Below are positions 1,868 through 18,055 of a DNA stretch of 22,754 nt, piece by piece. The translations under genes and the position numbers were made by a program. Source of the DNA: a virus; IMG/VR virus record IMGVR_UViG_3300044997_000687, positions 1 through 22,754 of that record; one strand, given 5' to 3'. Each line of letters opens with the position of its first letter. Within the stretch, counting starts at the first letter, position 1. The notes beneath the pieces were generated by a model. That model was given only the letters and a program-made list of their open reading frames with translations, was not told the origin of the DNA and made no database searches.

Positions 1868-2254
1868 TGGACCAGTGCGGAGTCGAACCGCTTCTTTTAG
1901 TGAATTTAAATTAAAATACTACAAGTTTAGTTGTTTTTATTTTTAGCTTTGTATAGGTAAACAACAAACATACTCTGCGATTTTATTTTGAGTACTAAGC
2001 CTATAAAGAATAAAAAAACTTTAAAGACAAAGACATCTAAATACGCAACTATCCATTAGATGTGTCATGGTAATCACGCTGTAGAACTTAAGCTACAGAA
2101 GCGGTCTCCTCAACTAGAGAAACTCTAGCAGAGATGTGACCTTTGTATTTGGCTGTTTTGGCAGTTAATACTTTTAAGGCTTTTTAAAGAGTCCCACCTA
2201 AACCTCTACTTGCATTTTAATTCCGATTCCTAAAATCGAAACCAAATCTGGCCC
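1868..2254 (-). ncRNA. ssrA: tmRNA (transfer-messenger RNA), one-piece
   Basis: The 3' end has a T-arm-like GCGG-TTCGACT-CCGC followed by CTGGTCC and discriminator A. The 5' end starts GGGCCAG and continues with the tmRNA-typical GGTTTCGA. The two ends pair as a 7-bp acceptor stem with one G-U pair. CCA is not encoded. The resume region reads TTAACT then GCC, close to the cyanobacterial GTAACT-GCG pattern. The tag ORF ends in the loop of a CTGTAG/CTACAG hairpin, the expected place for helix 5. The length (387 nt) fits a one-piece tmRNA. In trans-translation it would rescue stalled ribosomes using host alanyl-tRNA synthetase and SmpB. The identity-giving G-U pair of Ala tRNA-like domains is present as G3-U. 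Confidence 0.9.
2088..2162 (-). other. tmRNA proteolysis-tag reading frame
   Basis: The resume codon GCC at 2162 is followed by 23 more sense codons and TAA at 2088. The tag reads AKTAKYKGHISA then RVSLVEETASVA. It is longer than most bacterial tags and ends SVA rather than the usual LAA or VAA. Its middle (CTAGAG/CTCTAG) can form a hairpin, which is unusual for the mRNA-like part. Confidence 0.75.
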
Positions 2255-2501: not shown

Positions 2502-2530
2502 ATTATAAAAAAACTTTGACAAAAAAGCAA
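2502..2530 (-). promoter_or_regulatory. Minus-strand promoter for the 69-aa gene
   Basis: TTGCTT (2525-2530), 17 nt, TATAAT (2502-2507), then 7 nt to the ATG. It overlaps the divergent promoter at 2516-2544, so the two probably exclude each other. Confidence 0.55.
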
Positions 2531-2544
2531 ATGTATTCTAATAT
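2516..2544 (+). promoter_or_regulatory. Strong plus-strand promoter for a structured RNA
   Basis: A perfect TTGACA (2516-2521), 17-nt spacer and TAATAT (2539-2544). It is the only clear plus-strand promoter in the first 10 kb, and no gene follows it, only the structured region to about 2878. Confidence 0.75.
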
Positions 2545-2550
2545 AAATTA

Positions 2551-2878
2551 ACATAGCTTCCAATTAGAGCAGTTTGTTGATGTCAAATAATCAAATATTA
2601 ATCCCTGAGATAGCAACGTCTCAAGGGCTGACGACTATTAAAACCTTTATTTGTACATAATATGGCTTTTGAAGGGAATGTAGCTATAGGCATCGCAGAA
2701 TGTAGTGATCGAAGCTACCTCTGATCCGTAAGTGCGATGGCCCATTTATCGCTGAAATCGTGATAAATTTGGAGTCAAAAGAAAAGTTGGATTGATAATA
2801 CTTAACTCTATATTTATAAGATCTAGAGGTAAAGCCCTTTTGGATATCAAAGAAAAGTTAAATAATTTAAGGATTTAG
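2551..2878 (+). ncRNA. Unidentified structured non-coding RNA, about 330 nt
   Basis: This gene-free stretch follows a consensus promoter and is visibly richer in G+C (about 45% in 2600-2790) than its surroundings, as structural RNAs are in A+T-rich genomes. Helices visible by eye include CCCTGAGA/TCTC-A-AGGG (2603-2627), TATTA/TAATA around 2636-2664, CATCGCA/TGCGATG (start about 2691; end about 2740), ATTTATC/GATAAAT around 2744-2768, and CTCTA/TAGAG around 2808-2830. GTAGCT and AGCTAC could pair across the CATCGCA helix as a pseudoknot. It does not match 6S, SRP, RNase P, group I or tmRNA signatures known to me. The 3' end is uncertain. Confidence 0.55.
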
Positions 2879-7340: not shown

Positions 7341-7370
7341 AAGATTCAACAAGCAGTGAATCTTATATTA
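7341..7370 (-). promoter_or_regulatory. nrdA leader: -10 box and hairpin abutting the start codon
   Basis: TAATAT (7365-7370, preceded by TG) fits a -10 box without a good -35. The predicted short leader is almost entirely an 8-bp inverted repeat, AAGATTCA/TGAATCTT (7341-7348 and 7357-7364, 8-nt loop), ending at the base before ATG. It could block ribosome access or bind a regulator. It does not match the NrdR box. Confidence 0.5.
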
Positions 7371-7379
7371 CATTGATTT

Positions 7380-7417
7380 TGTTGATAATAAAAGAAAAAA
7401 TTAAAAACTTATCAACA
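7380..7417. repeat. 9-bp inverted repeat upstream of nrdA
   Basis: TGTTGATAA (7380-7388) and TTATCAACA (7409-7417) are perfect inverted copies 20 nt apart, between the nrdA promoter and the upstream gene's stop. TTATCAACA is one base from the DnaA box TTATCCACA. The repeat could equally be a hairpin ending the upstream transcript. Confidence 0.45.
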
Positions 7418-7420
7418 TTT

Positions 7421-16833: not shown

Positions 16834-17073
16834 ATGGAAGAAAATAAAGATATACAAAAAATTAATGTAGGCCCATACATAAGATCCTCTCCTTTATCTC
16901 CAATAGTTCGTATTTTAGAAAAAATATCTAGAAATACAGTTTGCCCACTGACCAATAAGAAATTCAAACATTGTTGTGGTCAAAGTGGACAAAACTTTTG
17001 TAATAAATCTAAAGAAAATTTAGAAAATTATATGGAAGAATTAAAATCAAATCCAAATGATAAAATTGGTTGA
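16834..17073 (+). CDS. Small protein with SEC-C-like metal-binding motif (79 aa)
   Basis: ISRNTVCPLTNKKFKHCCGQ resembles the SEC-C motif (CPCGSGKKYKKCCG), but only the first of the leading Cys pair is present, so it is a degenerate or variant version. The C-terminus is polar and acidic. The ORF overlaps the adenylosuccinate synthetase-like gene by 17 nt, implying cotranscription and coupling. Function unknown. Confidence 0.6.
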   Translation: MEENKDIQKINVGPYIRSSPLSPIVRILEKISRNTVCPLTNKKFKHCCGQSGQNFCNKSKENLENYMEELKSNPNDKIG

Positions 17074-18055
17074 TATACTTTTTGGTCTTTCTTGGGGTGA
17101 TGAAGGCAAAGGTAAAATAAGTAATGCCATATCTGAAAATTATGATATGGTCTGCCGTTGGAATGGTGGCCCAAATGCAGGTCATACAGTTTATATCAAT
17201 GATAAAAAGTATAAAACTCATATTATTCCTTGCGGAGTATTTAAAAATAAACCTAGTATTATTGGACCAAATTGTGTTATCAATGTGGATAAATTTTTTG
17301 ATGAAATAGAATATTTAGAGAAAGAAGGATTTGATACATCTTTAGTAAAAATTAGTCACCGAGCGCATATTATTACAGAAAAACATATTCAATATGATTT
17401 ATCATTTTTAAAGCAAAGACTTGGAACAACAGGACAAGGAATTGCGCCAGCATATGCAGATAAAGCTATAAGACTAGGTAAATTAGCTAGAGATTATATT
17501 GATAAAAAGTATCTTTGGGACGGTAATCTATATGGAAATATACTTTGTGAAGGCGCACAAAGTTTTTGGCTGGATATAAATTATGGCAATTATCCGTATG
17601 TGACTAGTAGTGAAACACTTCCATATTCAGCTTGTTCTTTAGGGTTTTCTCCTAAAAAAATTCGAGATATCATTGGCGTTGCGAAGATCTATGATACAAA
17701 AAGCGGTATTGATCCTCTATTTCCAGATTTTTTAATAAATATGCCTCAAGAAAAAAGGTTAATAGAAGAAGGAAATGAATTTGGCACGACTACGGGAAGA
17801 ACTAGAATTGCAAATTGGTTAAGAATAAATCATCTAATATACGCAATTAGGACATCTGGAACAACGAAATTAATAATTAATAAATGCGATATACTAGATA
17901 AACTTGGAATATATAAAATTATAATTAGTCCAGATGAAGGATTTGATTATATTTCTTTCAAATCTTTAAAAGAAATGCAGGATTTTATATACAAACAGAT
18001 TGGGGAGCATTGTGGAATCGAGACAACGTTTTCTGGACACAGAAGTTTAGTTTAA
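17057..18055 (+). CDS. Adenylosuccinate synthetase family (PurA/PurZ-like), short form
   Basis: At 332 residues it is about 100 shorter than bacterial PurA (about 430) and close to the phage PurZ size. Motifs are intact: GLSWGDEGKGK at 10-20 with Asp15 and the P-loop, NAGHT with His43, GTTGQGIAPAY at 123-133, EGAQ at 165-168, YVTSS, TTTGRTR at 244-250, and NKCD at 275-278 for guanine nucleotide. PurA joins Asp to IMP with GTP, the first step to AMP. Characterised PurZ enzymes act on dGMP for 2-aminoadenine DNA and have Ser in place of the catalytic Asp, which this protein retains. A true adenylosuccinate synthetase is therefore favoured. No purB, datZ or mazZ is seen here. Confidence 0.85.
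   Translation: MIKLVDILFGLSWGDEGKGKISNAISENYDMVCRWNGGPNAGHTVYINDKKYKTHIIPCGVFKNKPSIIGPNCVINVDKFFDEIEYLEKEGFDTSLVKISHRAHIITEKHIQYDLSFLKQRLGTTGQGIAPAYADKAIRLGKLARDYIDKKYLWDGNLYGNILCEGAQSFWLDINYGNYPYVTSSETLPYSACSLGFSPKKIRDIIGVAKIYDTKSGIDPLFPDFLINMPQEKRLIEEGNEFGTTTGRTRIANWLRINHLIYAIRTSGTTKLIINKCDILDKLGIYKIIISPDEGFDYISFKSLKEMQDFIYKQIGEHCGIETTFSGHRSLV

Follow-up and report, generated by a model that had tools for sequence, protein, structure and literature searches.

The results establish that positions 2516-2859 on the plus strand of a 22,754-base virus record (the window, that is, the whole stretch of DNA that was analysed) constitute an autonomous structured-RNA gene with its own promoter. That this is a real structured-RNA gene is virtually certain. 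Judged from sequence comparison, the best explanation would be a new family of trans-acting structured RNA, encoded by its own gene, in a lineage of large metagenomic phages. The original prediction, which concerned positions 2516-2878 (+), had named three findings that would speak against it, and none of them was made: we found no known RNA family, abundant covariation, and no conserved coding frame.

Homologues of the RNA form four clades

Related loci were collected with several queries. A search with the 171-aa downstream protein yielded 35 of them, and one with a 15-mer of the RNA a further set; scans with the repeats R1 and R2, described below, added more distant RNA members. Alignment A1 comprises 49 distinct sequences that fall into clades A (which includes the window), B, and C. 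A weak match in locus L011 on renewed search revealed a fourth clade, D, whose relationship is barely visible in its sequence, and a pattern common to clades C and D yielded about twenty more loci; alignment A3 comprises 16 distinct clade D sequences. The total is 65 distinct homologues, all from metagenomic phage contigs. The collection of related phage sequences that the original prediction had proposed thus supplied abundant covariation.

A detector that used the promoter and the repeat pair only recovered the RNA loci again, plus some unrelated repeat matches. In bacterial genome contigs, the R1-R2 pattern gave 0 matches and the C/D pattern 5 chance matches; cultured phages gave no match beyond the promoter, plasmids gave no match, and sister phages with NrdA 75-78% identical carry no such RNA near nrdA. 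Given the fragmentary contigs and the sequence searches used, the family seems confined to this phage lineage. The RNA is single-copy in the 17 long contigs in which it was found with the queries used.

Covariation supports a fold with two pseudoknots

The folding energy of the region, taken as a lone sequence, is not significant (z = -1.23), and the minimum-energy fold of one sequence misses the helices P3 and PKb. Since the lone minimum-energy fold is unexceptional, the case was made from homologues: of the folding check proposed originally, single-sequence energy gave no support, and the support came from helices that covary among homologues. Helices were found by a systematic scan for covarying, stacked columns and were then counted with controls. 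In clades A-C (alignment A1), the final model, of 69 pairs, has 94.3% of its cells paired, vs. 30-51% with partners slid, and double changes occur at 36 pairs and in 302 cells, vs. 25.6 pairs and 79±10 cells in shuffled alignments; because the shuffles ignore the relatedness of the sequences, the sliding control and the strand swap (below) weigh more. Clade D (alignment A3, 16 sequences) was unused in finding the first model, and its helix positions were assigned manually on L011. In this clade, 98.1% of the cells in the corresponding helices are paired, vs. 33-44% with partners slid, and double changes occur at 18 pairs and in 54 cells, vs. 8.1 pairs and 15±4 cells in shuffled alignments; P4 was revised once clade D was known, after which both sets were counted with the new version. 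Clades A and D are almost unalignable, yet have 12 helices and two pseudoknots in common. We conclude that covariation in the alignments provides decisive support for the predicted fold. The several complementary helices and the possible pseudoknot of the original prediction are both borne out, the helices as 12 conserved ones and the pseudoknot together with a second, each supported by covariation.

The fold begins with hairpin P1 (2556-2570, +; 2556-2559 with 2567-2570), for which double changes occur at 3 of 4 pairs and 100% of cells are paired, and hairpin P2 (2576-2595, +; 2576-2580 with 2591-2595), which covaries in clades A and D, has a register shifted in clades B and C, and lacks its outer pair in the window. 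Long-range helix P3 (2596-2797, +; 2596-2604 with 2789-2797) shows double changes at 6 of 7 pairs. Swapping of P3 strands gave own-clade means of 21, 19, and 35, vs. 9-17 between clades; that is, P3 strands fit within their own clade only, not across clades. Within P3 lies hairpin P4a/P4b (2610-2638, +; 2610-2613 with 2635-2638 and 2617-2620 with 2630-2633), with 100% and 95% of cells paired and three covarying pairs, and kept in clade D. P4 was at first drawn as a GNRA hairpin; P4a/P4b supersedes that version and has one strand of PKb in its loop.

Pseudoknot PKb (2623-2839, +) pairs the P4 loop (2623-2629, AAGGGCT) with 2833-2839 (AGCCCTT), crosses P3, and joins the P4 loop to the 3' end of the RNA. 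Its cells are paired in 99.4% of cases, with double changes at 4 of 7 pairs, and its strands in clade D read CGGAGCTT/AAGCTCCG and CAAAGCTT/AAGCTTTG. In several clade D RNAs (L366, L367, and L361), GGAGC lies shortly after the 3' strand of PKb, before R2, and could pair with that strand in place of the P4 loop, a possible alternative fold that is not present in all clade D members. Pseudoknot PKa (2680-2718, +) pairs 2680-2685 (GTAGCT) with 2713-2718 (AGCTAC) and crosses helix P7, with 98% of cells paired and double changes at 2 pairs. P7 itself (2689-2742, +; 2689-2697 with 2733-2742) has 97.7% of cells paired and shows double changes; its strands in clade D are CTAGCGC/GTGCTAG and CTAACGC/GCGTTAG.

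The remaining helices are hairpin P5 (2644-2675, +; 2644-2648 with 2671-2675), with double changes at 4 of 5 pairs in A1 and A3; helix P8 (2707-2727, +; 2707-2711 with 2722-2726), with double changes at 4 of 5 pairs; hairpin P9 (2745-2767, +; 2745-2752 with 2760-2767), with double changes at 6 of 8 pairs and, in clade D and most of clade C, a loop of GNRA type; and hairpin P10 (2805-2830, +; 2805-2809 with 2826-2830), with one-sided changes only and with 93.9% of cells paired in A1 and 96.8% in A3.

The RNA has a conserved promoter and does not encode a conserved protein

The RNA is preceded by a sigma-70-type promoter, TTGACA-N17-TAATAT (2516-2544, +), in which TTGACA starts at 2516, TAATAT ends at 2544, the spacer is 17 bp, and the score is 10/12. 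The region contains many promoter-like sites (26 vs. 16.9 expected), and the match alone is therefore weak; we judge the promoter to be real because it is conserved among homologues. TTGACA is kept in 59 of 60 homologues, and the spacer, the sequence of which drifts, is exactly 17 bp in 52 of the 52 homologues with a scored -10 element. The near-perfect plus-strand promoter noted originally accordingly stands, with its weight coming from conservation. An expressed transcript is predicted from the conserved promoter. The promoter region alone (window 2503-2550) shows a weak likeness to regions of Enterococcus and Staphylococcus phages (E 0.04-0.4).

The conserved RNA block begins 5-10 nt past the -10 element in homologues (mostly 6-9 nt, most often 6), and transcription is expected to begin with ACAU (2551) or slightly ahead of it. 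The block runs from ACATAG to GAAAAGTT in the aligned homologues, and the sequence beyond diverges. Conservation in alignment A1 (49 distinct homologues) extends to the end of R2 and stops at about 2859, slightly inside the end at 2878 predicted originally, giving a structured RNA of about 310 nt (2551-2859, +); across the family, the length is about 285-320 nt. No intrinsic terminator was detected on the plus strand between 1500 and 4500, and the 3' end is therefore placed from conservation only.

The homologue alignment, read as plus strand, contains 266 G-U cells vs. 73 A-C cells, an excess that shows that the RNA is read from the plus strand, as the promoter predicts. The region 2516-2878 contains no ORF of at least 60 aa, its stop-free stretches are short and lack conservation, and no reading frame stays open across the RNA family, in agreement with the original view that the region holds no convincing gene. 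The raised G+C noted originally is present (34.7% in the RNA region vs. 28.7% in the window and about 23% in the flanks), but is only a mild signal, as about 10% of same-length windows reach that value.

The RNA carries two unpaired repeats with identical cores

Two unpaired repeats, R1 (GGAGTCAAAAGAAAAGT; 2771-2787, +) and R2 (GGATATCAAAGAAAAGT; 2842-2858, +), are present: R1 precedes the 3' strand of P3, and R2, at the 3' end of the conserved block, follows the 3' strand of PKb. The repeat core is [C/T]AAAGAAAAGT in clades A-C and ATTGG[G/A]AAnn in clade D. For 62 of 62 distinct RNAs compared, spanning six variants, the R1 core is identical to the R2 core; a seventh variant, ATTGGGAATT, is present in both copies of L356/L363. 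The bases flanking R1 and R2 differ, and R1 is longer by one base, which makes simple copying of a longer tract unlikely. The plainest reading of these sequences is that R1 and R2 would both bind one partner; gene conversion or an internal structural need could in principle also account for the identity. The strict identity of R1 and R2 provides a direct handle on function.

The phage genomes searched (17 contigs with clades A-C, and the clade D contigs) contain no conserved complement of the repeat core elsewhere, which leaves a protein or a host RNA as partner. R1 and R2 as antisense to a phage target were considered and rejected: there is no conserved site, and the extra CTTCCCAAT sites examined sit inside coding sequence. 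Complementarity of the A-C core to a T-rich box upstream of nrdA was likewise rejected, since clade D has a similar box and a different core.

Alleles of the RNA are exchanged among related phages

In the window, the RNA lies beside a tmRNA gene (1867-2254, -; Rfam RF00023, ARAGORN), which is not part of it and from which a 69-aa ORF separates it, and the RNA is on the plus strand, opposite to the neighbouring genes; position and direction are both as originally described. Rfam detects only this tmRNA and a tRNA in the window. The tmRNA tags (window 1868-2254; L002, L021, L091, and L105) are of two kinds, AKTAKYKGHISARVSLVEETASVA-like and AKPAKLKGSFSLRVSHKK..LIAA-like, the latter occurring with RNA clade C. 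A conserved element upstream of nrdA (window about 7360-7420, -) comprises TGTT[A/G]ATAA, a T-rich box around TTTTTCTTTT, and a TGTAATAT-like sequence; it occurs also in L016, L004, L051, L017, L011, and L369, with or without the RNA there, and is possibly a phage middle-type promoter. An adenylosuccinate synthetase-like gene (window 17057-18055, +; Pfam PF00709), shorter than the profile, is perhaps PurZ-like.

NrdA is 87-91% identical between phages with different RNA clades, of which A and D are barely alignable as RNA. On the nrdA tree, the four RNA clades are scattered, requiring 8 changes vs. a minimum possible of 3, and close neighbours carry different clades (L378, A, and L406, D; L396, B, and L403, D). 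The scatter indicates that deeply divergent alleles have been exchanged, unless nrdA itself has moved; nrdA may itself recombine, and the tree shows exchange at the locus, not its direction. That close relatives exchange such deeply divergent alleles suggests that diversity is selected for, which in phages is frequently a sign of interaction with the host or with rival phages.

Discussion

We regard as evenly balanced the proposal that the RNA is an early trans-acting scaffold that docks one partner at two sites, with both mechanism and partner conjectural. According to this proposal, host RNA polymerase would transcribe the RNA early in infection, the double pseudoknot would form a rigid scaffold displaying R1 and R2 as two equal docking sites, and both sites would dock a single kind of partner, either a host RNA or a protein, perhaps a dimeric one. 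The RNA would thereby sequester or organise the partner to the benefit of the phage, a benefit that would be tied to hosts or rivals. Were the partner to vary from host to host or among competing phages, R1 and R2 would be expected to change together and alleles to be swapped. A more specific version, which we offer tentatively and consider rather doubtful, is a two-handed specificity factor, in which the double-pseudoknot scaffold would carry two identical recognition sites. Its alleles, deeply divergent and exchangeable, would have spread among closely related phages, a pattern expected if the RNA targets a variable host or rival-phage component.

The position of the RNA bears on whether it could instead regulate the ribonucleotide reductase operon, nrdA-nrdB, in cis, as a leader or riboswitch. 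In clades B and D, it shares the strand of nrdA and stops about 100-140 nt short of that gene, as such a leader would; however, a leader should lie always 5' to the operon and co-directional with it, and in most A and C genomes the RNA is convergent with the operon, facing its end, or distant from it, and some A genomes place it among other neighbours. In addition, nrdA retains an upstream element of its own (GTTAATAA ... TTTTTCTTTT ... TGTAATAT-like) at loci that lack the RNA, and nearly all RNA members have their own promoter. The varying position, together with the element of nrdA's own, leads us to reject the cis leader in favour of an autonomous, trans-acting gene; a leader or riboswitch is largely refuted by position and hardly tenable. 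A role as sponge for one of the host's RNA-binding proteins, for instance Hfq or CsrA, is highly improbable. Hfq prefers ARN-like sequence and CsrA prefers GGA, and in clades A-C the repeats begin with GGA and contain the A-rich, ARN-like AAAGAAAAGU; but clade D has AUUGGGAAGU, without an A-rich run, R2 in clade D is not always preceded by GGA, and there are two sites only, outside hairpin loops.

A pseudoknotted scaffold that ends in variable sequence and has conserved unpaired bases could also be a ribozyme or the guide or scaffold RNA of an RNA-guided nuclease (omega-RNA or tracrRNA-like). We consider this very unlikely: no nuclease or transposase gene is seen travelling with the RNA, no TnpB/IscB/IsrB-type nuclease gene was recognised among the neighbours (by clustering and inspection, with some neighbours domain-searched), the 3' flanks track the adjacent gene and not a guide, and neither HEARO nor any Rfam ribozyme family matches. 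The ORF that starts directly after R2 in L060 (150-809, -) looks like a methyltransferase/spermidine synthase, and L002 has a shortened remnant of it in the same place. An RNA-only assembly like GOLLD or ROOL, a homo-oligomer or cage in which R1 and R2 would serve as quaternary contact elements, would fit the size, the pseudoknots, the phage location beside tmRNA and tRNA genes, and the lack of a protein gene inseparable from the RNA. By analogy it is conceivable but unlikely, as the length is half that of GOLLD and ROOL or less, neither family matches, the repeats lack self-complementarity, and the fold shows no evident symmetric kissing loop.

As the original prediction held, the RNA resembles no family that can be named. 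The covariance models of Rfam 15 (4227 families) gave no match in the RNA at the gathering threshold, and at E up to 10 gave chance matches only for clades A, C, and D, one of them in the window region; RNase P RNA, group I intron, 6S RNA, SRP RNA, HEARO, and ribozymes are among the models without a match. Text searches of open papers returned no description of such an RNA.

The favoured reading, a trans-acting structured RNA with its own gene, invites comparison with three systems. Like tmRNA (RF00023), which is adjacent in many of these phages, the RNA is predicted to be a pseudoknotted stable RNA; unlike tmRNA, it has no tRNA-like domain or tag reading frame that we could find, and RF00023 matches 1867-2254 only. 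GOLLD and ROOL are encoded by phages and prophages, lie near tRNA islands, and form cages, GOLLD (>800 nt in many members) a 14-mer and ROOL (659 nt in the solved example) an 8-mer (PMC12286853). Like GOLLD, the new RNA is a large, pseudoknotted, phage-encoded orphan near tRNA-type genes, but it is about 310 nt long and does not match the covariance model (conserved 3' domain); like ROOL, it is phage-encoded and has multiple pseudoknots and no known protein partner, but it is much shorter and does not match the covariance model. It is rare for a natural RNA of this size to have two pseudoknots that covariation supports across sequences that can scarcely be aligned. In family and anatomy, the RNA is categorically new; as an orphan structured phage RNA, its companions are GOLLD and ROOL.
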